The position numbers and the translations under genes were made by a program. Source: Isoetes taiwanensis (lineage: Eukaryota > Streptophyta > Lycopodiopsida > Isoetales > Isoetaceae). From it: DNA of 64,000 nt. Location: contig JAJEKV010000003.1 of the NCBI GenBank assembly GCA_021234155.1, positions 20,568,386-20,632,385 on the forward strand. The letters are read 5' to 3'. The notes under the pieces are model-generated. The model ran no database searches. It worked only from the letters and a program-made list of their open reading frames with translations, and was not told the origin of the DNA. Within the stretch, counting starts at the first letter, position 1, and every line of letters begins with the position of its first letter. This document shows positions 1,657 to 60,303 of this stretch, piece after piece.

Positions 1657-1667
1657 ACACAACTAAC

Positions 1668-2112
1668 ATTAACACACAACTAACATTATTAACACAAACC
1701 ATTGCATTTGACACATTTACATTAAAATCCCCCTTAAACCCCCTTTGGTTTGGGTGCATATTCACACGGGGGGTTACTTCGGGCAACGAGAGCTGTCGGA
1801 TGGGCATATTTGCCCTTTATTCCAAGATCTGGACCGTACATAGAGATCCTCGTTTGTGGGGTATGCATGTATAAGTTTTTGTATACTGTATATTAAAGTT
1901 TGTAAAATACTATAAGGTTTGAGAGAATGTACTTAATGGTGTTAATTTTGTACATGTATTGTAAATTTTTTGAGGCTCTCGCTGCCCTACGTAACCCCCC
2001 GTGTGAATATGCACCCAAACCAAAGGGGGTTTAAGGGGGATTTTAATGTAAATGTGTCAAATGCAATGGTTTGTGTTAATAATGTTAGTTGTGTGTTAAT
2101 GGTTTGTGTTAA
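1668..2112. repeat. Long foldback (terminal part of element X)
   Basis: Two inverted arms of roughly 110-120 bp (about 1668-1786 and 1990-2112) flank a loop of about 200 bp. The arms contain CCCCCTTAAACCCCCTTTGG and its complement. The same foldback, with loop sequence conserved, occurs at 41160-41690 and 50090-50695. Next to each is a short hairpin (GGCCCC TTC GGGGCC). Confidence 0.85.
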
Positions 2113-2775
2113 CTAAAAAAATTTTTGGCCCCTTCGGGGCCTTCAAGATGGTGTAGGGGTGTAGATATAGACATTACCTAATACTCTAATGATGGATGGT
2201 ATATCATAGCCTGATAAATCTAACAAACTAGAGGTGCTGAAATTATGGAAACGAAAACATTGCATAGAATTAGACATATGTAATATTATACCAATACCAA
2301 TATTAATACATGAGGTAGCCACTCAGGAACCAACCATGGTTCAGTTCTTCCCATTTCCACAACAGACCATGATATGTGTACAAGGCACCCACTTAGCGCT
2401 GCCTTCTCTTGCAAGATAACTCAAAAGATGAAGAAAGGGGTTGTCAATTAACCATAAGAATTGGAAATCCTAAGGCATCTTCACCCCCTTCCTGTTCACC
2501 CCATTACTTGGCATGCAAGCCATTGCCCATGCTACAGTTAGAGAAGCTTGAAACAAAAGGGGAAACCCAAAGATGCTGGAGTCTTCCAAGCCCAAAATCC
2601 ATGAGCCAGCAGAAAAGATGGATGGCAATCACCAAAAACTTCCTAAGATGAGAGAACTGAAGCCATGCCTCCAAGTCTATAGAAGCATGGCCAATCTGTG
2701 CTTCAGCAGCATCTGTCTGTGGATAGTTCTCTGTACCAAATAGACCCCACCTGATGACAAAACAATGACACAGCT

Positions 2776-3030
2776 TTTCAAAACAATGTTTTTCATCAAC
2801 AATGACATGGCTTACACCACTCAAGGTTGGATCTCCTAAAAGCCGCCTCAACAAAATCCCCATCATAGAGAAAAGCAAATCTGTATTTCTTCCTTTCATT
2901 CCTTCTAAACGTACTTGATAACCTATCTGCAAGTAATCAATCTTAGACAGAACAGCAAAAGATGTTTATGAACATAAAAAAAACTCTTACCGAATCTCCT
3001 ATAGCTTCCCCTCTTTCTGCAGCTACCTTT
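2776..3030 (-). pseudogene. Captured DExH/DEAH-box RNA helicase fragment
   Basis: On the minus strand, two exon-like pieces with plausible splice borders encode a DExH-helicase segment. The first (2991-3030) reads KVAAERGEAIGDS. The second (2926 leftward to about 2776) reads [13 protein letters not shown], then [19 protein letters not shown], then DEKH. These correspond to motif Ib and motif II of DEAH-box helicases, where DEIH or DEAH is expected; DEKH is abnormal, and the following HERG motif is lost. The intron between the pieces is retained, so it came from genomic DNA and not from an mRNA. It lies inside element X and has no start or end of its own: a transposon-borne fragment, not a gene. 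Confidence 0.75.
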
Positions 3031-3456
3031 CTGAAACAGAAATGACTGATATGCGCCTGGGCTGTGTACAGATTATTAATCATCAGAAATGTGTGGCTCT
3101 TATCTTCGTGAATCAACTGAATATAGGAGAGCTCTACTGAAGCAACAAGCTGGTATGGCAAATTGCATGCAGCAAGAAATAATCTCTTCGTTTATCAATG
3201 ATAAGAATGACAGTAAATGGAAATATGGCCTGCCTCTGTCAGAAAAGCGAAGAGGCTAAACGATTCTTTTTGAATTACGTGGGCAGCTCAGAACACCTAT
3301 AAGCAGTCGTTTCAGTGTTGTGAATGGAGCAATAAATTAATTAACTGTTTCAATGGGGTTGTTAGCCTGGGCCTGAAATCGCTGGAGATAACCTGACCTC
3401 TGCTTTAGAAACTCGGCTGCCTCAAGAGAACTCCGTCCACCAAGGCAGCCAACAAT

Positions 3457-4240
3457 CTAGCTAGCTTGATCAGACTGATCAGAGAAACAAGTAGATTCTT
3501 TATCCAGAGCAAAAAGCCAAACAAGAAATGGCCAAATCAGGAGTCTAAGGCCTGCAAGAGCAATTGTTAAAACACCACCAATTTGAGCCACGGAAAGCAT
3601 AATTCTTTGCCAGATTTTGATATAGGTAACCGGATCACATGGCGGGGGTTGCAAGCCTCCAAATAAGCGGTATAATTCGCAATCATAGAGATCTAAGACT
3701 AAATGCTTGGCATTTGATAATAGTTTTTCACCAAAGTCGTGACCAAAGGGTCGAATCGGGGTAGAGATATGACGAAAAGTTTGGAAAATGAAATTTGGTC
3801 AAAAGGGAAACTAAAAAGGATTAAGAAGCTAAAAAGGAAGGGGTTACCTTGAAGCAGCGGAAATAAGCATCTCGGAAAAATTGCCGGAACCACAAGATCT
3901 TTGAGAGGCAGATTTGGGGTTCTCTCTCCAAAAAAAGTATTGCATCTTTGGCTTTGCAAGCATGGACCGAAGTTTGCATCCCAAATGTGTTGCAAAATGA
4001 ATCCATCACATCCTCATTTATCAGAACCGACATTTGCTTCCCCGAATCTGTCCTGCTCAGCATATAAAATGAGATATGATTTGATAAAACCAGAGCAATT
4101 GCTAGCACTAAAAATGCTAAGAAAGAAGGATAGAACAAACGAAAACGAAGATCTCGAATTCAGAGAAAGAAAAATGGACTGTAGAACCCTAAAGCATGCC
4201 CTCTTTTCCACAAACCCTAAAATGAGAGAGCTCGATGCTT
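3457..4240 (-). pseudogene. Second gene-like cargo in element X, not identified
   Basis: The minus strand looks like the 5' part of a plant gene. A pyrimidine-rich leader at about 4240-4080 is followed by an open frame starting MLSRTDSGKQMSVL and running to about 3850, where a GT donor-like site follows CFRCFK-type sequence. Further down, at 3654-3457, another open stretch contains hydrophobic residues (VLTIALAGLRLLIWPFLVW). I do not recognise the family. The reading is inference from codon openness and splice-like borders only. Confidence 0.35.
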
Positions 4241-4477
4241 GCATGTGTTTTCTGGGGACTAAAAAATAGATGGTTTTTTCATGGAGAAATATTCAAAGCT
4301 AAACCATTGCAAAATCATAGATAATATGGCATTCGAATATGAGAATACAGTGTGCGCTCTAGATATACTGATTAGTATGCCTCGCACAATACACCCATCA
4401 AATCATATGAAAACAATAGCAAAAACCGTATAAAAATATAAAAAAAACCCCCTGTTATAATGCTACATATTGAACCC

Positions 4478-4959: not shown

Positions 4960-5958
4960 TGTTACAGGTGCTTCCAGGGGCATGGCCGGTAACGGACTCC
5001 TGATGGAATTCCATAAGCAGGGGAGTACCGTCGATAGCATGTCAGGGGCATAGTGGCTATATGCCAGACCATATGCCCGTAATCGGGCTATGAGGACATA
5101 CCAGTGCTAGCAAAGTTGACCCTAGAGGTGCAACTTTTAATGTTTATGGATAAAACATTAGCTATGGTTCTTTGCACATTAATATTAATGTTAAAGGGCG
5201 CCACATGGCACTTTTATATTGGTTAGAATCGGCCAATAAGGAAGGAAGGAAGGTGCATGGCTAAGAAAAGCTCGAAGCTTTTTTGATATGCGGCTGTTTG
5301 AATGGCAACAAGCCGAATTGCTCTCAGATATCGCATGCCAGGGCATGATAGACACCTGGATGTGATCGGAACTGCTTGATAATGCATGCAAAAGTAGAAA
5401 TCGATCCTATTTAAAGTCGGGGGAGGGGGAAGGGGGCTTTGAAAAGACCCACGGATTGACAAAGCATGGCAGTTCTTCTATTCTTGTGCAGATTGAATTG
5501 CTATTGCTGATCCAAAGCCATATAGCCCAAATCCGAACTCTGTCATCTTGATTCTGGTTCTGTGCTACATCACTGGGTAGTGTTCTTAAGAGCTAGAAGG
5601 AATCACGTTGTTCTTTGCTTGTAGTGCTTGCAAGCTTTGAAGTTGGATTCCATTGCAAGAGTATTGCTTTGTATTTGGAATACAAGGACATTGCTTGCAT
5701 TGATCTGCAGTACTAGCAATAGATTGCCAGGTTCATACTTGCATCTATAGAATTATCTCAGGGAGATAACTCACTAATCGTTGTGTGCAAAGGATCATTC
5801 GATTCTTTTGGAAAGAATCAAGAGGAAGCTAGGCTTCCTAATTAGTCTCTGGGAGACTAATCCCATCGATCGTGGGGAACTCTGGGAGTTCATGGCGTGG
5901 GCGGTAGACTGTTGGCCTTTTCCCATTGTTTGGGAAGCTGCAGAATTTGCAATGTGAC
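4960..5958 (+). repeat. Gypsy 5' LTR
   Basis: It begins TGTTACAGGTGCTTCC and matches the 3' LTR starting at 10673 along its length, except for the solo-LTR insertion in the latter. It ends a few bases before the primer-binding site. The terminal CA is not cleanly visible in either LTR. Confidence 0.85.
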
Positions 5959-7560: not shown

Positions 7561-8065
7561 ACATTTAATCAAATTACGTCAGGGGCTTGATTGGGAACTA
7601 TAGTGAAGTTCTCGAGAAAGAAAAACTAATAGCAAATTTGACTTTGCTACTTAGGCAAAATAGTTATAATGCAATAGGTGCAATTATAATTTGGGTAAGT
7701 ATATTTTGGTAATATACAAAATATAGAATAGAATAGAATATATAATGGACCTGAGGATCTCAACTGGCGTGAATAAATTTACCTTGTTTTTTTTTACTTT
7801 TTACTTACAAAAGTTGGACTAAGATGGGAAAGATATTGGAATATCTTGACACCTTATAACTAATCCTATGCACCTAGTTAATGTCGTATGAAGAGGATTA
7901 AAACCATAGGAATTTTGGCTAAGCGACGGGGTCGACTTAATAGACCAAATTCTTATGAAGAAATAGATAATGCTATTTAATGGGAAAGTTGCATGCTCGA
8001 CCTTCCTAGGTGAATTTAGGGAAGACTCCCAATGACTAGGAATTGGTCAAGACCAAGGAATAATT
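7561..8065. other. Disrupted gypsy interior containing the duplication breakpoint
   Basis: Protease and the first reverse-transcriptase motifs should lie here but are not found. There is a short AGAAT run (7720-7740). From 7762 onward, the sequence is shared with 18732 onward, so the left border of the 11-kb duplication falls here. Confidence 0.5.
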
Positions 8066-9345
8066 CCAACCTTTATGAGGTTGATGAATCAAGTATTCTC
8101 GGAATACTTAGATAAGTTTGTCGAGGTGTTCCTCGATGATGTGTATTCATAAATGTTAGAAGAATAAGAATAAGAATAAGAATAAGAATAATAAGAATAA
8201 GAATAGTTTTTTATCGTCCACTGAGACCAATCGGCCTATGGGACCCTGAAGGAGCGCAGCAAACTTATTACTCTTCGAACCCTTGCTTGCCCCGAAGGGT
8301 TTTCGAGGGAAAAACCGTGGCAGTAATAAGAATGCTGTCAAACTGTACAAGTATACATCATTATGAAATAAATGTGTATGTACATGTCAAGCGCGTGCCC
8401 GAGGACATAGCTGATCTCGCATGTCCATGACCTCCTGAAGGTATGATCCTAGCACCCGTACGAAAGAGCACTTTGCTCATTTGGAGCAAATATTGCAAAC
8501 TCTTTGTACTCAGAAACTTTATGCTAAGATATCCAAGTGTGATTTTCTTAAGCAAAGGGTTGCATACCTTGGACACATCCTTTCGGGGGAGGAAGTGTCG
8601 ACGGATCCAAGTAAGGTGCAAGCAGTGCAAGACTGGCTACCACCTGAAAATGTTTCCAAGTTGAGAAGTTTTCTGGGTTTTGCTATGTACTATAGAAAAT
8701 TTGTGCCGAAGTTTTCAAAAGTAGTAGCTCCACTCATGGATCTTTTGAAGAAAGATCGCGAGTATATATGGGAGAAAGCACAGCAAGAAGCTTTTGAGCT
8801 TGTCAAAAGATTGTTGGTTAGTAGTCCCATATTAAAGATTCCCGATCTTAATAAATCCTTTGAGGTTTATACCGATGCTTGTGGTCAAGCAGTTGGGGTT
8901 ATATTAATGCAGTAAGGTTGGGTAGTGGCTTATGGACACCGAAAGCTTAATTCTCTTTGAAATGAATTATACAACATATGAGTAAGAACTATTGGCAATA
9001 GTTCACACTCAAAAAACATGGAGACATTACTTGAGAAGTGGTACAAGTAAGGAACTACGCAAGTTTGTCTTCTATACTGGTCATAAACCATTGAGGTTTT
9101 TGTAAAGTCAAGCTGAGATTAGCTCTAGACAGGCTAGATGGCTTGATTTTCTCCATGAATTTCATTTTAGTAGAGCATACGCCTGGGAAGAATAACCCAG
9201 TAGCTGATGCTTTATCAAAGATTAAGCATGTGAATGCTCTTGCTATCATGGAGTATGACTGTTTCCAGAGGATTAGGGATGCGTATGCTAAGGATCAGCA
9301 AGACCCTGTAGTCACCAAAACTGGGGATTGGTGAACCGAGCAAGA
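8066..9345 (+). pseudogene. Gypsy reverse transcriptase and RNase H (interrupted)
   Basis: FMRLMNQVFSEYLDKFVEVF leads into the catalytic FLDD (8129-8140). A LINE tail (8161-8466) splits the frame. It then continues FAHLEQILQTLCTQKLYAKI, YLGHILSGEEV and SKLRSFLGFAMYYRKFVPKF (thumb), and finally RNase H with VYTDACGQAVGVILMQ followed by an in-frame stop at 8915. The tether region with EHTPGKNNPVADALS follows in another frame. Copy 2 (18732 onward) shares the stop but keeps a better RNase H boundary (SAERNYTTYE) where copy 1 is garbled at about 8952-8965. Confidence 0.87.
8161..8466 (-). mobile_element. 5'-truncated LINE tail inserted in gypsy RT
   Basis: About 305 bp with an AATAAG repeat run at 8161-8206, which is a TTATTC tail when read on the minus strand. 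The minus strand then shows, upstream of the tail, the 3' hairpin (outer arms CTTATTACT and AGTAATAAG) and the last codons of the LINE protein (GSYLQEVMDMRDQLCPRART, then stop). The piece is nearly identical to the longer copy at 51070-51607. It interrupts the gypsy reverse transcriptase between DDV and the AHLEQIL segment. Confidence 0.85.
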
Positions 9346-10440
9346 AGGGTTGTACTTTTATAAGGGAAGAGTGTGTGTTCCTTTGTACGAAGAATTGCGA
9401 GAATCAATTATTCGTGAGCATCATGACACCCTGCAAGCTGGGCATGGGGGTGAATGGAAAACCTATGAGCTGGTAAAAAGGCAATATTATTGGCCGGGTT
9501 TGCAAGACCAAGTGAAACAGATGGTTTCACATTTTTTGGTGTGTCAAGCTGTGAAAGCTGACCATGGCAAGACCTTGGGCCTGTTGCAACCCATTCCAGT
9601 ACTTAATGAGAGATGGTAGTGTGTGAGTATAGATTTTGTAGTCTCATTATGCCAGACTACTAAGCAGCACACCCAGATCTTAATAGTGGTTGATTGCTTG
9701 ACTAAGTATATTAAGTTTATACCTCTAAGGGATGATACGAATTTGACGTAGCTGCAGCTTATATGTAGTACGTGTTTCTGACTTTTGGGTTTCCACTATC
9801 TATTATAAGTGATAGGAATACCAAGGTCACAGGTCATATTTGGAGAGACCTGATGAAGGGGTTAAAAGTGCGATTCTATGTATGAGTAGTGGAAATCATC
9901 CCAGCACAAATGGACAACCGAGAGAATCAACATGATCCCCGAGGATATATTGAGAAGTTTTGTTCATGAAAACAATCTAAGCGGGAGGATTATTTACCCT
10001 ATTTGGAATTTGCCATAGCCATCAAGATGACGCCTTTTGTGGCTATGATGGGTAGGATCCCAAGAACTTATGCTGGGATGCAAAAGTATCTCAAAACAGA
10101 AGCAACTATGAATATGCTTCATGATATGGATGCAATACTGCGTCAATGCAAGTTGAATTTGCAAAGGGCTCAGGAATGATATAAGTCTAGTGCTAATAAG
10201 CATAGACGAGATGTCTCCTGTGAGGAAGAAGACTATTTTTTTTCTGAGAGTGGTCTATCCTTTGTCACTAAGGGTGAATAGTTTTTGACCTTTAGTGAAA
10301 GGACGAGTGCCTAAGCTTTCCGCGCGATATGCCGGGCCCTTTAAAATTCTGAAAAGAATAGGTCCAATAGCATATGAGTTGAGCTTATCACAGGACCTTG
10401 GGATCCATCCTGTATTTCATATAAGTCAAATGAAGTGTAG
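9346..10440 (+). pseudogene. Gypsy integrase (degenerate)
   Basis: The zinc-binding N-terminus is seen as IIREHHDTLQAGHGGEWK and FLVCQAVKAD, with the first cysteine of the usual CxxC missing. The catalytic core follows (ILIVVDCLTKY, then FPLSIISDRN), and a GPY/F-like C-terminus at about 10327-10380 (FKILKRIGPIAYEL). In copy 1, the glutamate-bearing motif is scrambled at 9870-9945. Copy 2 retains it as GNHPQTNGQTERIN in an open frame at 20754-21161. Stops at about 9619, 9750 and 9782 occur in both copies. Confidence 0.85.
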
Positions 10441-10654
10441 TTAGTCCTAAGAGTATACCGCTTGTCTTAAACTCCTCTATAATGCCAGAATATCTTTTGG
10501 ATAAAAGAGTTCGGCAAGAAATGCGCAACAGAGATGTTGTAGAACATTTGGTCTTGGGATGCAGGCAGACTCCATAGGATGCCATATGGGAGTCGGATGA
10601 GTTTGCGCAGCGGTATCCTCACTTGAACTAATTAAAATACCTTAAGGACAAGGT

Positions 10655-10672
10655 CTTAGAGGAGGGAGGAAT
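10655..10672 (+). promoter_or_regulatory. Polypurine tract of gypsy
   Basis: AGAGGAGGGAGGAA immediately precedes the 3' LTR start TGTTACAGG at 10673. It is the expected plus-strand primer. Confidence 0.85.
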
Positions 10673-12253
10673 TGTTACAGGTGCTTCCAGGGGTATGGCC
10701 GGTAACGGACTCCTGATGGAATTCCATAAGCACGGGAGTACCGTCGATAGCATGTCGGGGGCATAGTGGCTATGTGACGGACCATAAGCCCGTAATCGGG
10801 CTATGGGGACATACCGGGGCTAGCAAAGTTGGCCATAGGGGCGCAACTTTTAATGTTTATGGATAAAACATTAGAAATGGTTCTTTGACATTAATATTAA
10901 TGTTAAAGGGCGCCACATGGCACTTTTGTATTGGTTAGAATGGGATAATAAGGTGCATGGCTAGCTTTTCTGATATGCGGCTGTTTGAATGGCAGCAGGC
11001 CGAATTGCTCTCAGATATCGCATGCCAGGGCATGATAGACACCTGGATGTGATCAGAACTGCTTGATAATGCATGCAAGAGTAGAAATCGATCCTATTTA
11101 AAGCCGGGGGAGGGGAAAGGGGGCTTTGGAAAGACCCACGGATTGAAAAGCATGGCAATTCTTCTGTTCTTGTGCAAATTGAATTGCGATTGCTGATTCA
11201 AAGCCATATAGCCCAAATCCGAACTCTATCTGTTACGAATGCTCTGTTCTTCCTGCAAATTTATCAACTTATTAAAATGTAAAACACCACAGAGTACTCG
11301 ATTTACTACCCAACTGGACTGACTAGAAGAGATGTCACCAAGTCAAGCTACTACGCAAGACTGTATGAGAACAAGCTCTTTCTAGCCACCAACCATTGGT
11401 GTTGCAGGAACTCCTTCTAATGATATGAGCAAGCAAGAAACAAGAGAAAATACTAGAAGAGCAAGGCTAAGCTCTTCATCAAACATAGAAAGAAGCAGAT
11501 CTAGTTGTGCAGTCATTTTAGACCTCTATGCACCTTTCTGGGCATAACTTTCACACCGTAAGGAATCTATGGACAAAAAGCCCAATCTGGAAGCTAGACT
11601 TCAAGAGGTTTACAATAAGGTAAGGATTGCCGATTTCTGAGTTGTGGTCGCGGAGATATCACGTCTCAAAGTTGTCCTTCTATTTATAGGTAACAATACC
11701 CTTATTTTTTGCCTTTTTGCTTTTAAATAAAGGTCAAGGTTTATTTTTAGCTCTCTCTTTGATAATATCAAGGCTTAGACATACTGGATGGCTTTCTTCC
11801 TTGATCATATCAATAAATATTATTCCATGCAAGACCACTCCCCCGAGCACCATATCACTATCATCTTTATTCTGGTTCTTTACTACATCACTGGGTAGTG
11901 TTATTAAGAGCTAGAAGGAATCACGTTGTTCCTTGCTTGTAATGCTTGCAAGCTTTGAATGGATTCTGTTGCAAGAGCATTGCTTTGTATTTGGAATACA
12001 AGGACATTGCATTGATCTGCGCCAGGTTCATACTTGCATCCATAGAATTATCTCAGGGAGATAATTCACTGATCCTTGTGTGCAAAGGATCATTTGATTC
12101 TTTTGGAAAGAATCAAGAGGAAGCTCGGCTTCCTAATTAGTCTCTGAGAGACTAATCCCATCGGTCGTGGGGAACTCTGGGAGTTCGTGGCATGTGCGAT
12201 AGACCGTTGCCTCTCCCCATTGTTTGGGAAGCTGCAGAATTTGCTGCATGATA
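10673..12253 (+). repeat. Gypsy 3' LTR (holds a solo LTR)
   Basis: It matches the 5' LTR but is longer by about 630 bp because of an insertion at 11231-11857. It is followed by the target duplication CCTCA (12254-12258). Confidence 0.87.
11231..11857 (+). mobile_element. Solo LTR inserted in the gypsy 3' LTR
   Basis: A 627-bp insertion absent from the 5' LTR. It begins TGTTACGAATGC, ends CACCATATCA and is flanked by CTATC on both sides (11226-11230 and 11858-11862). TG...CA ends plus a 5-bp target duplication identify an LTR left after recombination. It contains a TATA-like TCTATTTATAGG near 11680. The same insertion is in copy 2 at 22211-22837, so it predates the 11-kb duplication. Confidence 0.85.
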
Positions 12254-12258
12254 CCTCA

Positions 12259-13265
12259 TCAAAATTCTTGGGAAAGTTAGGTCTAAAATAGTCATTATCT
12301 CGTGTATTTCAATATCTTGAAATCTTTTGCTTGTTCCTGCTTCAGTTCTCCCATATGCATTCAAGTCCTATTGTTTAACATCCTCCTTTAACTTATCAAC
12401 CTTTATAAGCCTTTTTTTTCTAATCGGGTTGCCACATACTCCTTTTATATTTCCCTCATTGTTGTCATGTCTTTGTCCTTTTTCAACTTTCTCATTGTCT
12501 CTGTTACTTTCATTCGCTAAGCTATTATTGTTGTCATAAACTTGTTCTGTTTCAGCATTTCCAATATCTCTGTTACTTTCATTTGCTGGATTATTCCCGT
12601 GGTTCACATATCAATTTGTTTTTCGATCACTTCATCATCATATAGATCTACTCTTGCATCTGAACCTTTAACTTTAGTATCCGTATCAGTAATGAGACCA
12701 GATCTGCCATATATGACATGCCTAGAGTTATAAAGAATGGATTCATCAAAATTGTACATGTCTTCTAACTATAATCCTTCTCTTTTCAAGCTGATATATT
12801 CTGTACCCCTTGGACATGTTCTCATACCCTACAAGAAACCCTTTTATTGCTTGATCATCTAATGTTTTCCTTAGAGCGTTGGGCACATGTACAAAAGCAA
12901 TACTTCCGAAATCTATAAGAAAGTCATATCTTATTTTTCTTTTACTCCATATTTTTCTACAACTTGGCTATTTAAGCTCAGATGGCAAACTGCTTTTGGA
13001 TGTACACAAATTGCTCTTATAGCCCCTTCCCATAAGAAATTTGGAAGTCCCGACGACTTAAGCATGGACCTTAATGATTAAGACATGTTCTTCCTCTCGC
13101 CTACCCCATTTTGTTGGGGAATATGACTGCAAGTAATTTGTCTTTATTCCTTTTTTGATGCAATAGCGTTTAAATTCCTCTGCAACATATTCCCCACCTC
13201 GATCTGACCTTAAACATTTGAGCCTTTTTCCCAGTTTCTCTCTCTACTTCAACCTCATAGACTTT
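12259..13265 (-). pseudogene. Ty1/copia integrase and linker (copy 1)
   Basis: On the minus strand, 13250-12780 encodes a copia integrase core. Its LRSDRGGEYV and YSP...NGVAERKN-type residues are split by frameshifts, followed by LPNFLWEGAIRAAVYIQNR and KGFLVGYENMSKGYRIYQ. The linker to the reverse transcriptase runs down to FPRIL next to the gypsy insertion. It is the upstream part of the element whose reverse transcriptase lies at 4478-4954. Copy 1 has more lesions than copy 2; for example, KTLDDQ to LPSTSL is broken here. Confidence 0.82.
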
Positions 13266-13754
13266 AAAAACATTAAATGCTTGATGGAGGATGACACGTC
13301 TATGCAGACTGCACTATGTCTTCAAAAGCACGGTGAGCCTCCATGGAAACATACTGACATCCGATGAGCGACAAGTCCGAGACCAAAAGCACTAGCACTC
13401 GCATTGGGGTTACAATAGTAAACGGGACGTCGGCGGGCAATTGAATATGTAAGAAGACACTTCAAAGCAGCACAAAAACCTACTTGGCGGTGCACTGATG
13501 GATCAGGGGACGTGGCAGCGCATTCCAAAATTTGGGTAAGTTCCCAGACAGCATGACCGGGGTTTTGCCAACCTCATTCATTAGGAATGTATATGCAATT
13601 TCAGTTGTGATCCAGGGTTTCTCCTACTTGCCAGACATTACAGCGCATGAAGTGTGGATCCCACCGAAGGTCTGTAGAAATGTGTGCCGGAGTCCAATCA
13701 GTATGACCAGCCAGAGCCTTGGTCCAAAAAAGGAGGAGCCGGCCGATTAAGAGA
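13266..13754. other. Unidentified repeat sequence
   Basis: The minus strand has an open frame of about 68 codons (76 in copy 2) with YYCNPNASASAFGL-type residues that I do not recognise. It may be the remains of another retroelement coding region. There is nothing else to support a gene. Confidence 0.3.
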
Positions 13755-15470
13755 CTAACGCCATGGAGGTGCTCCTAATGATGCATGAAGAGTTTCATGC
13801 CGAGGAGAAGGATGCATCATAGGCTGTTGAGCTTGGTCGTGGAACTCTTGAAGCAGATCGGCATCTAGGGTTTGACACCAACGTTCCCATTCTGAACAGG
13901 GAAGAAGTGTGTTGGTAGGAGGAGGAACCCAGTCCAGAAGAATTATTTGACCATCAAGATAGGCACGGAGACTGTTGAGGGCACCTAAGTGCTCAGTAGA
14001 TCTGAGCGAATTGAATCCCCATGTCCTCATGCAAATTTTTGCGGACTTGTTGTAAGGTTTCTACAATTCAAAGAGACAACTGTCGAGCTAGCTCGGGCAT
14101 GTACTCACCAAGAGCGTTGACCCATGACTGATCTTGAAGATATTTATTTTCCTGTCGTAACAGCCATTGGGCATTTGAATCACCTTGAACGGTATGGTGT
14201 GGACCCTCATCAAACTTATCCTGTATGCCAGCCAAATAGAAACCGTGCATGACATATGCCATTGGTTGAACAAGGCGAAGAATAAAGAATTCCTTGATCT
14301 TTACAAGGAATAAGTTGAAATATAAGAAGAGCACAAAGAAGGCCTTTGTCTTCAATGGAAAGATCAGGTTATATGGTGAGCAGAGCCTTGCTGGTAAGAG
14401 AGCCATGAAGGGTTCTATTAGCAGTGAATCACTTGAGCAAAAAAAGATGTTGTCGGGACTGAACATAGTCCAGATAGCTCGTGGGTTTTGGAAAATCATC
14501 CTGCATGTGAACAACTAAGGAGATGTAGGTCTCATGCTGATGATGAGATCGGTAGACTGAATTGCCTGCTGCAGCTGATGTTCCAAATCATGGATTTTGT
14601 TGTCTTCTCAACGGGGAGACGGAGTTGTTCCTTGATCTTTATGTGAGAATGAGTGGCCTGTGAGGACGAAGGGCCGTGAGTGGAAATCTGCAGCTGAAGA
14701 CTAGCAATCTCAGCATCATCCACGAGCTTCTGTTTTTGCATGTCACTAAGCTGCATTTGCAAATCCGTGACCTGTGTCTGTACTGTTGTTAGCTGTCCTT
14801 CCAAGACAGTCATGCGAATTTCACCCTACATATTGGCATGTTGTTGATGAGTATACTCATTTTGCAACCCCGTATAGAGAGCCTTAGCGTCAACAAGGAG
14901 CTTGTCTCTTCCTGTGATCTGAGTCGGGAGCTCAGTGATAGTAACCTGGAGTTGGGCTTGTTGTTCTTCTAGTGCAGTGCGTGTCTCTTGTTCTTTAAGG
15001 AGAGCAGCCCTAGTGTCCAGCAAAGCCCCGTGCTTACTCTGAAGACTTTTTTCCAAAGTCTGATTCTGAGCGTGGGCTGCCTGAAGATCACGCTGCAAGG
15101 CTTCAGTGGAATCCATGTATTCTTTAACTAATGAAGTGATCTTGCAACTCCTGGAGTTTGAGCATGCAATTAGCAACAATCTGCTCATATTGATACAGTG
15201 CCGGTCTGGTGGGTGGAGGAAGGAGCAGCTGGAGAGACAAAGGCGATTGGTGAGTAGAGGTTTGAGAGACTTGGTGGGAGGTAGAAGCATCAGCCTGAGT
15301 AGACTGAGAGGAGGGGATATTGATGACCTTGGAAGGTGTGGGGCACGGATCTTGCAGTCATGGAGATGGTTGGGCGTCAAGGCATGGCCGAGAGGTCTCT
15401 TCTTAAAGTTCCCGGACTGGACGGATGATAGAGTAGGTGCGATTGGAAGCTTGAGAAGTGGCGTCTAATC
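13755..15470 (-). pseudogene. Degenerate coiled-coil ORF series, family unknown (copy 1)
   Basis: Three successive minus-strand blocks look like remains of one protein. The upstream block (15380-14530) is heptad-rich (TALEEQQAQLQVTITELPTQ, VTDLQMQLSDMQKQKLVDDA), implying a long coiled coil. The middle block (about 14300-14068) has LVQPMAYVMHGFYLAGIQDK and ends YMPELARQLSL. The last (14030-13755) has LRAYLDGQIILLDWVPPPTN, then FHDQAQQPMMHPSPRHETL. The blocks are separated by stops and frameshifts, and the set recurs in copy 2. It could be a structural ORF of a lineage-specific retroelement or a captured gene. I do not assign a function. Confidence 0.4.
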
Positions 15471-15949
15471 GTCTGGTGGACAAGCGACTAGGTTCTGGAA
15501 GATATTGATAAATAATGGCTTGGAAATGAGCACCCATCGCAGACTCAAGACCCGAACCAGGAGATTGGCGAATCCTGTCAACTTCATGAAGAAGACGTTG
15601 GAACAGAATCTGCGGCTAATCCACAAAGCTACTGGAATGAATGGCGACAATAGCAGTATGGAAAAAATGCTTGTTGATGTGGGAGTTACTTGATAGAGTA
15701 CCCATAGAACTTCCTCTATAAAAACTTCACTATATTGGTAAGCTTATGTGTGGCGGCAGCATATGGAACTTGACCATAAATAGTGACATCATGATCCTAT
15801 AAAGCAGCCCAATTTAAAGAAGGAGTGCGTCTAGGCAGTTGAAATACCTGTGCCAACAAGTTGGCCGAACTTGCTAGATTACGTCGTTTCATTTGGTCGG
15901 TTTATTCCTAGGGGGTACTAGCTTTATATATGGTTAACAGTTATCGGGT
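15471..15949. other. Unassigned stretch
   Basis: There are no recognised coding motifs or repeats. The sequence is duplicated at about 26470-26948. Confidence 0.3.
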
Positions 15950-16150
15950 CGACTATGGCAGAGAGAGGTCGACTCCCGTGGCTATGGCAAGACTGCTTAC
16001 TCCGGCGGCTATGGCGAGAGAGCTTGCTCCGGCGGCTATGACGAGAGAGCTTGCTCCGACGGCTATGGCGAAAGCGCTTGCTCCGGCGGCTATGGCAAGA
16101 GAGCTTGCTCCGGCGGAGTTGTGACGAGAGGGCTTGCTCCGGTGGAGTTG
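15950..16150. repeat. 27-bp minisatellite, about 7 units (copy 1)
   Basis: Head-to-tail units close to CTTGCTCCGGCGGCTATGGC plus AAGAGAG. Because 27 is a multiple of three, all frames stay open and would encode 9-residue repeats such as MARELAPAA. Flanking sequence gives no sign of a gene. The same array is at 26949-27149. Confidence 0.9.
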
Positions 16151-16249
16151 TTGCCTCCACAACATGGGTTTACCAAAGGCAAGCCTCTAATTTAAATATG
16201 GAATAGATGCACTATAAATACTAGAAGAACGATTATTGCCTTTAAGAAA

Positions 16250-16500
16250 GAAGTTGGCTTATCGGTAAAGGTGTTGGCTTGGGTGTAGAAGGTCAGGGGT
16301 TCAATCCCATGATGTCCCATGATGTACCTTTTGCTTAAAAGAACTGCTAACTGGATAAAACAAAACATTAAATATGATAACAAAGGGATAAACCCATATA
16401 AAGAGAGTTGGCAAAATGGAAAGAGTGTTGGGTTGGAAATGGAAGGTCATGGGTTCGAAATGGAGGGAAAAAGAAAGAACTTTTTTTTTTTTTTTTAAGC
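16250..16500 (+). repeat. Dimeric tRNA-like SINE with pol III terminator (copy 1)
   Basis: Two tRNA-like promoter modules follow each other. The first has an A box TGGCTTATCGG (16255-16265) and a B box GGTTCAATCC (16299-16308). The second has TGGCAAAATGG (16409-16419) and GGTTCGAAAT (16452-16461). Spacing within each module is 33-34 bp, normal for internal RNA polymerase III promoters. A run of T at about 16481-16497 would terminate transcription. No complete cloverleaf is present, so this is a SINE or relic and not a tRNA gene. The copy 2 equivalent starts at 27249. Confidence 0.6.
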
Positions 16501-16526
16501 ACGTATTTTTATACGGCAGACCGTAT

Positions 16527-16596
16527 ATGGGGCGCTGCTAGCATTATACGCTAATAACTTTCGAAAAGAAACACCTCATCCGCTAGCAGCGCCCCT
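16527..16596. repeat. Short inverted repeat (GGGGCGCTGCTAGC)
   Basis: A 14-base arm at about 16528-16541 and its perfect complement at about 16582-16595 enclose 40 bases. In copy 2, one base of the left arm differs (GCTGTTAGC). This could be a tiny foldback element or a chance stem. Confidence 0.55.
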
Positions 16597-16599
16597 TTT

Positions 16600-18731
16600 G
16601 ACTTTTCGCCTTGGTGTTGCCATTTCAACCTCGGGAAACGTGCTCCCTAGGGTATTTGGGAGGTGCCTGATCCATTGGAACCATTTTCGCCTTCATCTGA
16701 GCTACCAACGAAAAGTTATGGCCTATCTAAACCGGGGTCCTCCAGTCACACCTTCTTCCCTCCAAAATCGCCCTAAACTTCCTAAATCTCAACATTTTCT
16801 TACATCAACCTAGCACAAGACTAAATTACCGAAAAGTTAGGCAGTCCAACTAGCTTAACTCTCACTTAAATATCTCCTGGATCTTGGTTAACCCTGCTTA
16901 ATAAATTTACAGCATAGGTTATGTCAAGACGTGTACAAATGCTCAAACACAATAGGCAACCAATCAATTCCCAATATGCCACTCCTTCTATTTTAGATTT
17001 TTTCTCATCATTCTTAGGGCACTTTCCTTTGATACTATTGGCATCCTTGCATCATTACAGTTTTCCATGTGAAACCTTTTGAAAATGGCTTTAAGGAATT
17101 GTGCCTGGTTCAGCACTGAGCACACGAGGTATGAGGCTTTCAACCTTGGGAACAATGTTGCAGATCATGGTGTTAATGCCACATGATTTCATCACATCAT
17201 GGCACAGCTTGTGGATGAAGTGAACTTGCCAGATATTGATGTTGCATAGTTAACAAAGTTGTCACAAAGCAATACTGATGAGGAGCCTAGGGCTAATGTC
17301 AAGCCAATAAATTTTGAGCATTCGGAGCCATCAGGTTGTTGTCCAGGTAATGTTGTGCACCGTCGGCATGAACCTTCTGCTACAAAGACTATCCCCCCCC
17401 CAACACAAGGGGTATGCTCGAGTAGAACAACAAAGGACCTGGCATAAGTGGCATTGTCCATATTAGCTGCTTTTCGTGAAAAGCGCAGACAAGAAAAGGC
17501 CTTGAGAGTTGAGAGAGGCTAAAGGTTGGAAGGTTGGAGGCCAAGAAAATAGAGGCTGCAAGGAAGAGAACACTAAGAGAGGAGAAGAACAAGAAGAGGG
17601 TACAGACAAAGAGGGAGGAAAGAGAAGGCAGGAAAAGGATTGATGTTCAATTTGAGCTACGCACCTAGAAAGTTTTGAAAATTCATGGGCAGTCAAGAGA
17701 GGCATCCACATTCGGTTGCCAAAGGGCCAACAATCTGGATGCCAAGAGGAGGATGCCAATTTCGATGTAGTTGAGTAAGAGAAGTGTGTGCCATGCAGTC
17801 AACCTTCAATTAGCAAAGATGGTCATACATCTCCATTCAGGAACATCCGGAACTGGGTGGATACTATTGCATCACTGCAACATGTGGAACATGTTTGCCT
17901 ACATGTTGGAAAGGTGGCCAAAACCTAGCATGGAGGGCAAGTTATTAATAACTACGATGTAAGAGATGGGACCTGCCATGCCAGGGCAATTGGAAGGATA
18001 GGTTAGCAGGCTCCTGGAAGAGGCATATAATGAGGGTGCCTTATTGGTGAGTGGTAATGCAATGAATATACACTTGAAGGTGGATCAGGTATGTTGATTT
18101 AGATACTAGTCCAGCCTGTGACAATATCATTGCAATTGACAAGGCTAGGATTATAAGGGGTATGGTAGAGGATGGGTTTAAGAAAGACATAATTCCAAAG
18201 TCTAATATATGAGATACGCTACTGCGTAGATGAAGAAGATGGCTAAGGTATGAGGCTCGGATGATCTGATTTTGTGTCATGATGACCTCGCTAACTTTAT
18301 AGGGGTTACGTGGTCAAACTATTTTTTTGACTGAACCTTGTTTGTCTCAATCGTTAACTATGATCTCACTTTGACCTGTTGGTTATGCAGGTCTCGAGCT
18401 TCACACCAGATTTTGTTGATGTCAATGAGCCAAAAATTGGGGCACATCCAGCATATGATAGTGAGGAGATAATTGACGAGAGCAATGCCTACAAAAGTAG
18501 TCATTAACAGCTGGTGACTATTATTGCTTGTTAATTTGTATACACACCCCTAGATTGATTTGTAAATGGAATTTATATTGCTTCTTATGCTAAATGGCAT
18601 AGTAAAGCTTGCAACAGGAAGATTGCAACAGAAAGTCAACAAAAGCAGTTCGCGCGCACAGAAGTATCATTGTTATGTGATAAAAAAAAAAAAAAAGCTT
18701 GCATTGCTCAAAAAGGTAGCAGTGTTCACAG
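16600..18731. other. Unassigned repeat DNA (copy 1)
   Basis: The stretch includes the wording ACGAAAAGTTATGGCC, seen in several LTR-like repeats of this window, and a purine-rich block (17500-17640). It carries no convincing coding region. A short A run (18680-18695) precedes the duplication border. Confidence 0.3.
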
Positions 18732-19131
18732 AACTGGCGTGAATAAATTTACCTTGTTTTTTTTTTACTTTTTACTTACAAAAGTTGGACTAAGATGGGA
18801 AAGATATTGGAATATCTTGACACCTTATAACTAATCCTATGCACCTAGTTAATGTCGTATGAAGAGGATTAAAACCATAGGAATTTTGGCTAAGCGACGG
18901 GGTCGACTTAATAGACCAAATTCTTATGAAGAAATAGATAATGCTATTTAATGGGAAAGTTGCATGCTCGACCTTCCTAGGTGAATTTAGGGAAGACTCC
19001 CAATGACTAGGAATTGGTCAAGACCAAGGAATAATTCCAACCTTTATGAGGTTGATGAATCAAGTATTCTCGGAATACTTAGATAAGTTTGTCGAGGTGT
19101 CCCTCGATGATGTGTATTCATAAATGTTAGA

Positions 19132-19449
19132 AGAATAAGAATAAGAATAAGAATAAGAATAAGAATAAGAATAATAAGAATAAGAATAGTTTTTTATCGT
19201 CCACTGAGACCAATCGGCCTATGGGACCCTGAAGGAGCGCAGCAAACTTATTACTCTTCGAACCCTTGCTTGCCCCGAAGGGTTTTCGAGGGAAAAACCG
19301 TGGCAGTAATAAGAATGCTGTCAAACTGTACAAGTATACATCATTATGAAATAAATGTGTATGTACATGTCAAGCGCGTGCCCGAGGACATAGCTGATCT
19401 CGCATGTCCATGACCTCCTGAAGGTATGATCCTAGCACCCGTACGAAAG
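19132..19449 (-). mobile_element. LINE tail in gypsy RT (copy 2)
   Basis: This is the duplicate of 8161-8466, with two extra AATAAG units in the tail. Confidence 0.85.
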
Positions 19450-22210
19450 AGCACTTTGCTCATTTGGAGCAAATATTGCAAACTCTTTGTACTCAGAAAC
19501 TTTATGCTAAGATATCCAAGTGTGATTTTCTTAAGCAAAGGGTTGCATACCTTGGACACATCCTTTCGGGGGAGGAAGTGTCGACGGATCCAAGTAAGGT
19601 GCAAGCAGTGCAAGACTGGCTACCACCTGAAAATGTTTCCAAGTTGAGAAGTTTTCTGGGTTTTGCTATGTACTATAGAAAATTTGTGCCGAAGTTTTCA
19701 AAAGTAGTAGCTCCACTCATGGATCTTTTGAAGAAAGATCGCGAGTATATATGGGAGAAAGCACAGCAAGAAGCTTTTGAGCTTGTCAAAAGATTGTTGG
19801 TTAGTAGTCCCATATTAAAGATTCCCGATCTTAATAAATCCTTTGAGGTTTATACCGATGCTTGTGGTCAAGCAGTTGGGGTTATATTAATGCAGTAAGG
19901 TTGGGTAGTGGCTTATGGACACTGAAAGCTTAATTCTGCTGAGCGGAATTATACAACATATGAGTAAGAACTATTGGCAATAGTTCACACTCAAAAAACA
20001 TGGAGACATTACTTGAGAAGTGGTACAAGTAAGGAACTACGCAAGTTTGTCTTCTATACTGGTCATAAACCATTGAGGTTTTTGTAAAGTCAAGCTGAGA
20101 TTAGCTCTAGACAGGCTAGATGGCTTGATTTTCTCCATGAATTTCATTTTAGTAGAGCATACGCCTGGGAAGAATAACCCAGTAGCTGATGCTTTATCAA
20201 AGATTAAGCATGTGAATGCTCTTGCTATCATGGAGTATGACTGTTTCCAGAGGATTAGGGATGCGTATGCTAAGGATCAGCAAGACCCTGTAGTCACCAA
20301 AACTGGGGATTGGTGAACCGAGCAAGAAGGGTTGTACTTTTATAAGGGAAGAGTGTGTGTTCCTTTGTACGAAGAATTGCGAGAATCAATTATTCGTGAG
20401 CATCATGACACCCTGCAAGCTGGGCATGGGGGTGAATGGAAAACCTATGAGCTGGTAAAAAGGCAATATTATTGGCCGGGTTTGCAAGACCAAGTGAAAC
20501 AGATGGTTTCACATTTTTTGGTGTGTCAAGCTGTGAAAGCTGACCATGGCAAGACCTTGGGCCTGTTGCAACCCATTCCAGTACTTAATGAGAGATGGTA
20601 GTGTGTGAGTATAGATTTTGTAGTCTCATTATGCCAGACTACTAAGCAGCACACCCAGATCTTAATAGTGGTTGATTGCTTGACTAAGTATATTAAGTTT
20701 ATACCTCTAAGGGATGATACGAATTTGACGTAGCTGCAGCTTATATGTAGTACGTGTTTCTGACTTTTGGGTTTCCACTATCTATTATAAGTGATAGGAA
20801 TACCAAGGTCACAGGTCATATTTGGAGAGACCTGATGAAGGGGTTAAAAGTGCAGTTGCGTATGAGTAGTGGAAATCATCCGCAGACAAATGGACAAACT
20901 GAGAGAATCAACATGATCCTGGAGGATATATTGAGAAGTTTTGTTCATGAAAAACAATCTAAGCGGGAGGATTATTTACCCTATTTGGAATTTGCCATAG
21001 CCATCAAGATGACGCCTTTTGTGGCTATGATGGGTAGGATCCCAAGAACTTATGCTGGGATGCAAAAGTATCTCAAAACAGAAGCAACTGTGAATATGCT
21101 TCATGATATGGATGCAATACTGCGTCAATGCAAGTTGAATTTGCAAAGGGCTCAGGAATGATATAAGTCTAGTGCTAATAAGCATAGACGAGATGTCTCC
21201 TGTGAGGAAGAAGACTATTTTTTTTCTGAGAGTGGTCTATCCTTTGTCACTAAGGGTGAATAGTTTTTGACCTTTAGTGAAAGGACGAGTGCCTAAGCTT
21301 TCCGCGCGATATGCCGGGCCCTTTAAAATTCTGAAAAGAATAGGTCCAATAGCATATGAGTTGAGCTTATCACAGGACCTTGGGATCCATCCTGTATTTC
21401 ATATAAGTCAAATGAAGTGTAGTTAGTCCTAAGAGTATACCGCTTGTCTTAAACTCCTCTATAATGCCAGAATATCTTTTGGATAAAAGAGTTCGGCAAC
21501 TGCGCAACAGAGATGTTGTAGAACATTTGGTCTTGTGGCGAGGCCAGACTCCATAGGATGCCATATGGGAGTCGGATGAGTTTGCGCAGCGGTATCCTCA
21601 CTTGAACTAATTAAAATACCTTAAGGACAAGGTCTTAGAGGAGGGAGGAATTGTTACAGGTGCTTCCAGGGGTATGGCCGGTAACGGACTCCTGATGGAA
21701 TTCCATAAGCACGGGAGTACCGTCGATAGCATGTCGGGGGCATAGTGGCTATGTGACGGACCATAATCCCGTAATCGGGCTATGGGGACATACCGGGGCT
21801 AGCAAAGTTGGCCATAGGGGCGCAACTTTTAATGTTTATGGATAAAACATTAGAAATGATTCTTTGACATTAATATTAATGTTAAAGGGCGCCACATGGC
21901 ACTTTTGTATTGGTTAGAATGGGATAATAAGGTGCATGGCTAGCTTTTCCGACGATATCAATTTGTTTGAATGGCAAGCAGTCAATTGCTCTCGATATCG
22001 CATGCCAGGGCATGATAGACACCTGGATGTGATCAGAACTGCTTGATAATGCATGCAAGAGTATAAATCGATCCTATTTAAAGCCGGGGGAGGGGAAAGG
22101 GGGCTTTGGAAAGACCCACGGATTGAAAAGCATGGCAATTCTTCTGTTCTTGTGCAAATTGAATTGCGATTGCTGATTCAAAGCCATATAGCCCAAATCC
22201 GAACTCTATC

Positions 22211-22837: not shown

Positions 22838-23240
22838 CTATCATCTTGATTCTGGTTCTTTACTACATCACTGGGTAGTGTTATTAAGAGCTAGAAGGAA
22901 TCACGTTGTTCCTTGCTTGTAATGCTTGCAAGCTTTGAAGTTGGATTCTGTTGCAAGAGCATTGCTTTGTATTTGGAATACAAGGACATTGCATTGATCT
23001 GCGCCAGGTTCATACTTGCATCCATAGAATTATCTCAGGGAGATAATTCACTGATCCTTGTGTGCAAAGGATCATTTGATTCTTTTGGAAAGAATCCAGA
23101 GGAAGCTCGGCTTCCTAATTAGTCTCTGAGAGACTAATCCCATCGGTCGTGGGGAACTCTGGGAGTTCGTGGCATGTGCGATAGACCGTTGCCTCTCCCC
23201 ATTGTTTGGGAAGCTGCAGAATTTGCTGCATGATACCTCA

Positions 23241-27149: not shown

Positions 27150-27248
27150 TTGCCTCCACAACATGGGTTTACCAAAGGCAAGCCTCTAATTTAAATATGG
27201 AATAGATGCACTATAAATACTAGAAGAACGATTATTCCCTTTAAGAAA

Positions 27249-48752: not shown

Positions 48753-49088
48753 TAAAGCACATGTGCTAATATGCATCCTTGAATATTCCTTCCATTCAAT
48801 GCCTCAAATTCCTTTGGGGTCATGAAGTTCTCTTTTTTTATATATTGAGACCTAAGCTGATAAATTTGAAACTTTCAGCTCAAACCTTGTCAGTTGATTT
48901 GAGGGCTTGAAAATATTCATGTAATTATCATTCTTTTTTGTATTGTTTGTTATACAAAATTTTGACCTGTTGAGGTTTTTGGAGGATTGGCTAGAGAATC
49001 TCCTGCTTCCAAAATAATCAGCATGCCCATTTATGTCTTATAAAATATATCTGAAAACATAGTGACATATTTTGGAAGCAAATGTTCC

Positions 49089-50704
49089 ATATGTAGCATA
49101 ATAACAGGGGGTTTTCTTTCTGTTTTTGTACGCTTTTCACTAAGGTTTTCCTATGATTTCGTGACATATTCAAATGGATGTACTAATGCGTACATCTAGA
49201 GTGCACCATTTCTGAGCCATTGATTTTAGCCTTTTTTTTTCAATGGTCAACAACCAATGGCTCACAACAAAAGCCCCTTTTTTGTGCGTGTGGTGCGTAA
49301 TGGGCACATGAAGGGCATTGATTTTAGCCTTTTTTTTCAATGGTCAACAACCAATGGCTCACAACAAAAGCCCTCTTTTTGTGTGTGTGGTGCATAATGG
49401 GCACATGAAGGGCTTGAAGGGCGCATGTAGTGCAATTTCCCCGCCGGCAACACATTTCTTATCATAACTTTTAATCCAGAGCTCTGTTTGAGATGATTTT
49501 TATTGCGTTGGAAAGATCTCTCCGAGATTTTTTTGATAGTGTATGATATGGATATGTTTGGTTAAGTTATCTATGCTAAAACAGCAATTTTTCGGCCGGG
49601 TTTGGTAGGCTTTCACATCCTACCGGTGATTATCTGAGGATTAGCTATTGGATATTATTTTATGGCTCATTCCGAATTAAGCTTGCAAACAATTACCATG
49701 CATTTTTAGATTTTGAGGCAGTTATTAAGCAAATTCCAAGGCTTCTAGATCCTTGTGCTAACAAGCAGAAAAGTTTCCCACTTTGGTTTCTCACCACAAG
49801 AATCCATGGAGGCCAAAGGCTGCTGTTAAATTCCAGTTGAAAAATGTTTGTGTATGGGTGTTGCAAACTTTATGACTTTCAGAATAATGGGATCAATTTG
49901 CTCTATCTTTATGGTAACTTTTACTTATGTTCTATTTGTTTTATTGTGATCAAATTCAAAAGCTACATGTGATGAAAGCCTCAAATGAATTCTAGTTTTT
50001 TTCTGGTTTGAATTCTAAAATTTTTGTCACAGGAGGGGATGGCGTCCCTAAGGCCCTGAAGGGGCCAAAAAAAAAATTTTGTAACACAAACCATTAACAT
50101 CCAAATATAAAAATTAAATCTCCCAACACATAACAACCAACACATAACAACCATTGACATTAACAACCAACACATAACCACCATTGACATTAATTAACAC
50201 AACCATTGGGTCCAACACATTTAAATTAAAATCCCCCTTAAACCCCCTTTGGTTTGGGTGCATATTCACACGGGGGATGACGTAGGGCAGCGAGAGCCCT
50301 CATAATTGTATTTTGCACGTACGAAATCAACACAATATAGTATTTCGCTTGAAATCTTATAGTATTTTGCGAATCTTGTTATACAGTATAGCAAATTTTG
50401 TACTTACATACCCCACAAACGATGAACTTTACGTACGGTGTAGATTAAGGAATAAGGGGTGAAATTGCCTATCCAACAGCTCTCGTTGCCCGGAGTCACC
50501 CCCCGTGTGAATATGCACCCAAACCAAAGGGGGTTTAAGGGGGATTTTAATTTAAATGTATTGGACCCAATGGTTGTGTTAATTAATGTCAATGGTGGTT
50601 ATGTGTTGGTTGTTAATGTCAATGGTTGTTATGTGTTGGTTGTTATGTGTTGGGGGATTTAATTTTTATATTTGGATGTTAATGGTTTGGGGGTTTAAGG
50701 GGGA
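49089..50704. mobile_element. Element X copy 3 (inverse orientation)
   Basis: The inverse complement of 41149-42742: it starts ATATGTAGCATAATAACAGG and ends in the foldback (50090-50695). It is missing from unit 2, which reads GTTCCATTTCCAGTAATCG (57190-57210) at this place. The right end seems truncated, because no 7-bp duplication can be seen and about 8 bp of target were lost. A plus-strand frame at 49718-49830 ([20 protein letters not shown]) may be a captured exon of unknown origin. Confidence 0.75.
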
Positions 50705-50804
50705 TTTAATCGTATCAGATGCAAGGTATTGCTATTTGTGGTTTATAGTTTGTTTTGGTTTATAGATTTAATACTTGCCATTGGCACTCGTCTTCTTTAG
50801 TTTT

Positions 50805-53260: not shown

Positions 53261-54511
<1,251 letters not shown>

Positions 54512-59082: not shown

Positions 59083-60303
<1,221 letters not shown>

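Follow-up and report, generated by a model that had tools for sequence, protein, structure and literature searches.

A gene-capturing repeat family with fold-back ends and Helitron2-like features in the quillwort Isoetes taiwanensis

An insertion in a copia reverse transcriptase gene

We analysed a window of 64,000 nucleotides from Isoetes taiwanensis, in which a copia reverse transcriptase (RT) gene is split at positions 1657–4470 by an insertion, here termed c1, with the heptamer TGAACCC on both flanks. With the flanks joined through a single heptamer, the minus strand reads as one copia RT: VYGLKQSPR is followed by a stop and, with the frame unchanged, by …GFMKLQNDGNLYMFKDKDRF. Two uninterrupted genomic relatives of the c1 flanks carry a single heptamer, TGAACCC in L051 and TGAATCC in L052, and the 7-bp duplication at c1 is therefore shown at the DNA level. 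The preliminary description of this DNA had claimed a mobile element that carries gene fragments and has exact borders and an exact TGAACCC duplication; the joined frame and the two relatives bear out the borders and the duplication. The first T of the right heptamer may be the element's own, since CATAT is followed by T in 26 of 32 copies.

We use the sense in which the fixed end of the element is its 5′ end and the variable end its 3′ end; this corresponds to the minus strand of the window. Read in this way, c1 has a fixed 5′ end (ATATGTAGC…GGGGGTTT), usually preceded by A, then exchangeable gene fragments and a terminal stem-loop with a stem of 31 nt and a loop of ∼180 nt; an inverted copy of the 5′ motif lies just before the stem. 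The features of c1 and of two further copies, in window coordinates, are:

1650–1656, no strand: left 7-bp flank copy, TGAACCC, in the host copia RT
1657–4470, minus: whole element, copy c1
1657–1762, minus: outer fold-back arm, matching the inner arm almost perfectly; 17-nt tandem slip at 1656–1688
1763–1793, minus: outer half of the terminal stem (CACACGGGGGG…GAGAGC); its mismatches with the inner half recur in other copies
1794–1974, minus: loop of the stem-loop, 181 nt
1975–2005, minus: inner half of the terminal stem
2006–2126, minus: inner arm
2006–2032, minus: 5′-end motif, inverted and degenerate (AATATG…AGGGGGTTT), adjoining the stem; candidate 3′ ATIR
2127–2141, no strand: short GC hairpin GGCCCCTTCGGGGCC; most measured fold-back arms end before it
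2786–2926, minus: captured DExH helicase exon piece (IGYQVRLEG…VIVDEKH)
2927–2990, minus: retained helicase intron, GTAAG…CAG, 64 nt
2991–3029, minus: captured DExH helicase exon piece (KVAAERGEAIGDS)
4345–4471, minus: fixed end (5′ in the sense used), ∼125 bp common to the subfamilies seen; terminal motif AAACCCCCTGTTATAATGCTACATATT
4471–4477, no strand: right 7-bp flank copy, TGAACCC; the first T is possibly the last base of the element
41165–42740, minus: copy c2, with fold-back arm and stem-loop, another interior and the same right end
49088–50706, plus: copy c3, opposite to c1, left border placed within a few bases; an uninterrupted relative lies at 56860–57567

Standard terminal repeats had been reported as missing from c1. 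This was wrong for the left end, where an inverted repeat of 127 nt (1667–1793 and 1975–2101) is 98% complementary around the 181-nt loop. Between the two ends of the element (ATATG… on one side, …GTGTG or an arm on the other) there are no long paired terminal inverted repeats apart from a 27-nt motif of 70% identity: at the point where the stem gives way to the inner arm, the right-end motif AAACCCCCTGTTATAATGCTACATATT reappears in inverted, degenerate form. It matches at 19 of 27 positions in c1, a score equalled in 32 of 3000 trials with Markov-shuffled 5′ ends, and at 20 of 27 in c2, equalled in 1 of 3000. The sequence AAACCCCC..CATATT lies directly against the CACACGGGGGG stem in c1, c2 and c3 alike. 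At the 5′ end only a short ATG/CAT stem was seen by eye, and an Rfam scan of the window gave no match at gathering scores.

Captured genes and interiors

The reported presence of part of a DExH helicase gene with its intron kept was confirmed. The pieces KVAAERGEAIGDS and …VIVDE are separated by the 64-nt intron (2927–2990, minus strand, GTAAG…CAG), and the near-spliced peptide best matches DHX36-like (E 1.5e-8) and DHX9-like (E 4.3e-8) helicases. The second gene-like segment claimed in c1 gave no Pfam match.

Captured pieces were recognised in five bounded elements: the DExH helicase in c1, an RNase PH-type exosome subunit in L028, a TPR protein in L014, a Dirigent protein in L017 and an NDUFA7/B14.5a-like protein in L025. 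Among these pieces, drawn from selected rather than all open frames of the fetched loci (10 + 10), 5/5 lie on the minus strand of the element, which is the element sense. The selected open frames scanned inside elements gave no RT match. The interiors are diverse, with 20 of them falling into 6 groups when joined by any common 100-nt stretch, 9 at >20% coverage and 11 at >50% coverage. A fasciclin open reading frame (ORF) near L016 is on the opposite strand; it may be outside the element, since the right end of L016 was not found in the fetched stretch.

A family with a fixed right end and a variable left end

The two further members in the window, c2 and c3, have the same ends as c1 and a different interior. 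A 24-base pattern of the right end with one free base had 2613 + 2583 = 5,196 matches in the host assembly (1,658,258,908 bases), and its reversed control had 0. The seven best genomic relatives of c1 are 90–97% identical to it, and the stem-loop is joined to the same family end across different subfamilies. Neither the right-end pattern nor the inner-arm pattern was found in the viral contigs searched.

The 32 right ends compared were picked by similarity, so likeness is built in and only the bases outside are informative. The base following CATAT or its variants is T in 26 of the 32, and four of the exceptions adjoin another member; ten further loci gave T after CATAT (that is, A before ATATG) in 8/10. 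No A tail or simple-repeat tail was seen at the fixed end of the 32. The left end is cut off within the stem-loop or body in L003, L005, L007 and L012. In other copies the outer arm spans 20–1308 aligned nt, stem included; as relatives were ranked by likeness to c1, arms shorter than that of c1 are under-sampled in this range and longer ones should not be. Placing a Helitron 3′ end at the GC hairpin was rejected, as the copies seen run on beyond it.

Members stand head to tail in five loci (L014, L017, L020, L021 and L023). The junction is exact in L014 (CATATT/CACACGG), and in the other four the end of the neighbour is short by a few bases.

The outer arm resembles a fresh copy of the inner arm

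In 26 two-armed copies, chosen by similarity to a core that includes the 3′ ATIR-like motif beside the stem, the 31-nt stem halves flanking the loop match at 85% of aligned positions (661 of 774). The mismatches repeat across copies, with CTGCCCTACGT in the inner half and TTGCCCGAAGT or GGAGT in the outer half. Over the next 77 nt, counted from AATATG, the outer arm agrees with its own inner arm at a mean of 97.4%, and 13 of the 26 are perfect over 76 nt; the inner arms of different copies show 92.7% mutual agreement. Given 85% in the stem and 97.4% in the arm, the switch from old to new sequence falls in the final twelve or so stem bases, no later than GTGTG/AATATG.

A copy's own inner arm was the best or tied-best match for its outer arm in 20/26 cases. 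It was bettered in six, five of them by one or two bases and the sixth being L014, which is rearranged. As arms are alike within a subfamily, arm identity separates mainly subfamilies, and arm lengths and mirrored changes supply the rest. Changes private to one copy tend to be mirrored between its arms: of the 33 minority bases in the 20 c1-type copies, 21 are shared by both arms, and the full set of 26 copies, two of them badly aligned, gives 61 of 132.

Arm length was also considered relative to the GC hairpin. Of the 19 arms that start 107–130 nt from the hairpin, 16 end 2–25 nt short of it and three pass beyond. Where the hairpin lies at 186–223 nt, 4/4 arms end 19–100 nt short, and three further copies were unmeasurable. 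The c1 arm carries a 17-nt slip, and the c3 arm a template jump to GGGGGTTTAAGGGGGATTT. We read the arm ends, the slip and the jump as marks of DNA synthesis on a self-foldable template, with a 3′ end that had folded onto the stem serving as primer.

Loop orientation varies as well. When 40 loops were paired automatically with the nearest fixed end, 28 had the same orientation, eight were flipped (8/36 placeable) and four could not be assigned. Five flips are firm (L004, L013, two in L014, and L035); the second loops of L024 and L027 were probably matched to a neighbour's end, and one L014 loop is ambiguous. Such flips are compatible with new copies arising from a fold-back strand extended to its full length, and recombination between the arms is equally able to produce them.

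Target sites

Empty sites were sought for 17 joined flanks and for c3 (18 flanks), and eight were interpretable. For 9/18 there was no full-length match among the 40 places scored per search, and the relative of L008 was too distant for reading. Compared with its empty site, c1 has gained 7 bp, L028 and L009 are unchanged and L019 has lost 5 bp; the losses at L002, c3, L011 and L006 are roughly 6, 6, 8 and 11 bp, respectively. The tally of one gain of 7 bp, two sites with no change and five losses of roughly 5–11 bp uses values set by eye on the junctions, because in several the end of the element resembles the target. Aligned overlaps of 5 bases at L028 and 17 at L009 were taken as likeness between element end and host rather than as duplication, and L009 also has a few filler bases. 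At L005, what we take to be the copia spacing implies an apparent loss of ∼40 bp, which was left out of the count.

The preliminary description had treated the 7-bp duplication as a class marker and named the lack of other copies with both ends and a 6–8-bp duplication as evidence against this. None of the seven other interpretable empty sites has such a duplication; it is not a family trait, and this outcome speaks against the argument drawn from it. In a crude scan, direct repeats of at least 6 bases bordered 6/25 elements, compared with 62/600 mismatched pairings, a modest and unexplained surplus. In two of the six (L020 and L021) the flank is the arm of a neighbouring member, and among the remainder a flush repeat is established for c1 alone. 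We also rejected an IS91-like GAAC/GTTC target, which c1, c2 and c3 had suggested, because further right flanks disagree.

Comparison with Helitrons

The Helitron_like_N profile gave 1813 Rep candidates in the host genome; 150/150 scored above the cut-off, against 0/14 control genomes. Nine of the 1813 candidates were examined, and no Rep-bearing member with family ends was found among them: the family 5′ end was absent from the 3 kb before Rep in these nine Helitrons, two of which are near-identical and the ninth of which lies near a family member. A Rep gene near C1034:5431455 was rejected as an autonomous partner, as the stretch before Rep is without the family end. The stretch beside the element near that position shows LINE-like open frames by eye.

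Helitron2 carries its 5′ motif at the terminus and repeats it in inverted form just upstream of its 3′ hairpin (PMC3627910). For Helitron2, Helentron and HINE elements (PMC3627910, PMC4067079 and PMC5148889), ATIRs of 8–15 bp are described, and truncated Chlamydomonas relatives have 7–19-bp duplications and an intact 3′ end. Helitron2 is recognised by a 5′ ATIR 0–2 bp from the 5′ end, a hairpin at the 5′ end, precise insertion into a T-rich target without duplication, and RepHel-coding members with the same ends.

Set against these accounts, the present family is similar in its 5′ motif with an inverted copy at the 3′ hairpin, the lack of a consistent duplication, its non-autonomous members and its one-ended truncated copies. 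The motif starts at the fixed end and is degenerate (19 and 20/27 with its inverted partner), and AAACCCCC..CATATT sits immediately next to the CACACGGGGGG stem in all three window copies. The family differs from the Helitron2 so described in that a giant 3′ stem-loop (31-nt stem, ∼180-nt loop) is followed by fold-back arms of variable length, and the motif is longer and more degenerate than ATIRs. In addition, A rather than a T-rich target mostly precedes the end (26/32 and 8/10), the empty sites give +7, two unchanged and five losses in place of precise insertion, and the intact end is the 5′ end in the sense used here rather than the 3′ end, as in the Chlamydomonas relatives. As the target rule differs and no Rep-bearing member was found among the nine Helitrons examined, the family is taken as one that works like Helitron2 rather than as a proven Helitron2.

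The hallmarks of Helitron1 (5′-TC, CTRR-3′, a hairpin 10–12 nt from the 3′ end and an A/T target) are absent. Helraiser requires its 5′ end and not strictly its 3′ end, and produces truncations, new 3′ ends and adjacent insertions (PMC4778049). The family shares with canonical Helitrons and Helraiser a fixed 5′ end, a dispensable 3′ end, adjacent insertions and gene-fragment capture, and differs from them in having no 5′-TC, no CTRR-3′, no strict A/T target and losses at the target. A literature search over titles and the openings of abstracts showed no paper on fold-back Helitron ends and no description of this family, and the word ‘helitron’ has zero uses in two Isoetes genome papers (PMC8566536 and PMC10541799).

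Origin of the fold-back ends

The reading we favour, with confidence that is about evenly balanced, is that of a non-autonomous, gene-capturing, Helitron2-like rolling-circle element with self-primed fold-back 3′ ends. A Rep/helicase nuclease acting in trans would nick the fixed right end (usually A/ATATG) and a single strand would be peeled off, with strand transfer stopping at or near the terminal stem-loop (…CCCCCCGTGTG). The free 3′ end would fold back on the stem and prime DNA synthesis along the single-stranded inner arm; this is suggested by the outer arm, which beyond the stem is a near-perfect copy of its own inner arm, varies in length and usually ends short of the GC hairpin. Sloppy end joining to the target may then leave small losses, no change or an occasional short duplication (7 bp in c1). 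Gene pieces would enter between the fixed end and the GC hairpin.

The constant 5′ end, the ATIR-like motif at the hairpin, the dispensable 3′ ends, the head-to-tail neighbours and the sense-oriented exons together resemble Helitron2 architecture (PMC3627910) and the behaviour of Helraiser (PMC4778049). Also counted in favour of this reading are the mirrored changes, the arm ends short of the hairpin, the slip in c1 and the template jump in c3, the flipped loops, the diverse interiors and the abundance of Helitron Rep candidates in the genome. The self-primed arm and the loose joining would be the addition relative to Helitron2-like systems. Against the rolling-circle reading we count that no Rep was found between family ends, that the canonical 5′-TC, CTRR-3′ and A/T features are missing, that five of eight sites have lost roughly 5–11 bp whereas Helitron insertion is described as precise, that no hairpin was seen at the 5′ terminus beyond the short ATG/CAT stem noted by eye, that mostly A precedes the end, unlike the T-rich Helitron2 target, and that the L016 fasciclin ORF, which may be outside the element, is on the opposite strand.

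To our knowledge, 3′-end completion and gene capture by Helitrons are still largely inferred in the field. If the rolling-circle reading is true, thousands of natural copies may record the behaviour of a free 3′ end (its priming site, copy length, pauses and joining), making the family a ready data set on the single-stranded intermediates of a plant transposon as well as a large source of gene-fragment shuffling in the quillwort genome.

LINEs and SINEs inserted by target-primed reverse transcription have one fixed and one variable end, with duplications and deletions of variable length. In a non-autonomous retroposon of this kind, cDNA of a plus-strand RNA would be made from the right end up to the RNA 5′ end (CACACGGGGGG), fold back there on its own 3′ end and then be joined to the target. 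Such a retroposon accounts for the arms and for the contrast between a fixed and a variable end almost as well as rolling-circle transfer. The left end is truncated or variable as in LINE copies, the target outcomes span +7 to about −11 bp, the slip in c1 and the template jump in c3 would be at home in such a process, and fold-back of cDNA accounts for the arms as well as fold-back of single-stranded DNA does. The fixed end, however, has no A or simple-repeat tail, unrelated interiors lie between constant ends, all five captured genes recognised within bounded elements run antisense to the RNA required, and the scan of selected open frames inside elements gave no RT match. Because of the capture pattern and the lack of a tail we favour rolling-circle transfer over this retroposition, which we consider unlikely overall.

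A somewhat more doubtful proposal is a eukaryotic transposon with regular, rolling-hairpin-like self-priming, whose single-stranded 3′ end copies its own flank on the built-in stem before integration, either strand of the hairpin founding the next generation, and whose enzyme is not an ordinary Helitron Rep.

In parvoviruses, which replicate by a rolling hairpin, the folded-back 3′ end primes synthesis and the terminal loop occurs in both orientations. The family is similar in both respects, with loops of either orientation and arms, read as self-primed, of up to 1,278 copied nt. A hairpin-ended linear molecule that replicates in this way and is inserted via host repair nevertheless seems distinctly unlikely: unlike parvoviruses, the family has a hairpin at one end only, its copies are integrated and capture genes, and no related protein was seen and no replicase is known. 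The loop inversion could also come from recombination between the arms, and the constant ATATG end suggests a sequence-specific nuclease.

Alternatively, the 243-bp stem-loop might be a separate MITE, and ordinary gene conversion acting on the inverted repeats might keep the arms alike. Inverted repeats can convert, and within-copy likeness of the arms and mirrored changes would be expected here too. We regard this as improbable: the arms differ between copies in where they stop, mostly short of the hairpin, and carry slip and template-jump scars at their ends; the recurring stem mismatches are kept while the part beyond is near-perfect; and the stem-loop is linked to the same family end across subfamilies.

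The Pack-type TIR transposon (MULE or other) with a 7-bp duplication, as first proposed, is very improbable, because the gene fragments and the duplication at c1, together with the modest surplus of border repeats (6/25 versus 62/600), stand against 0/7 duplications of 6–8 bp at other empty sites and termini that share no paired repeat other than the 27-nt, 70% motif. The earlier view that the class is unusual is upheld in so far as the misfit with MULE, hAT, CACTA and PIF elements is real, TIRs at both ends and a fixed-length duplication being absent and only the border-repeat surplus remaining. The accompanying suggestion of an undescribed superfamily is unneeded, as the ends resemble Helitron2/Helentron ends.

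Insertion sites and border repeats of the family

The third family member in the window (c3, 49088..50706, + strand) is embedded in a segment related to window 56860-57567, and this uninterrupted relative is its empty site. Among 25 elements, short direct repeats near the borders showed a modest excess over mismatched pairings, a surplus for which the empty sites give no explanation. At the genomic locus L025, the flanks of the insertion were found again ∼150 kb away at 99–100% identity, with ∼2.6 kb between them (C907:49186244-49189067). The L025 insertion may therefore have been duplicated together with its surroundings.

Coding content of individual loci and of the genome

The family member at L028 (2501-9311; 6.8 kb) carries an uninterrupted RNase PH-type open reading frame of 215 aa, which matches both RNase PH domains. 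At L047 (3-2279), LINE-like open frames adjoin a family member; their likeness to AP-endonuclease was judged by eye. Across the whole host genome, 1813 candidate loci for Helitron_like_N were found, many with long open frames, and the genome is apparently rich in Helitrons.

Other repeats in the window

The copia element interrupted by c1 (1657..4470, − strand) is adjoined by a repeat of ∼560–585 bp, whose three copies are 87–90% identical:

4960-5544, repeat copy
10673-11230, repeat copy
21652-22210, repeat copy

There is also an 11-kb tandem duplication (7762-18735 and 18732-29738; copies 97.9% identical), inside which lies retroelement RT/RNase H sequence with a Pfam match at 8439-8915. A second, near-tandem duplication joins 52724-56857 and 58542-62678 at 96% identity.
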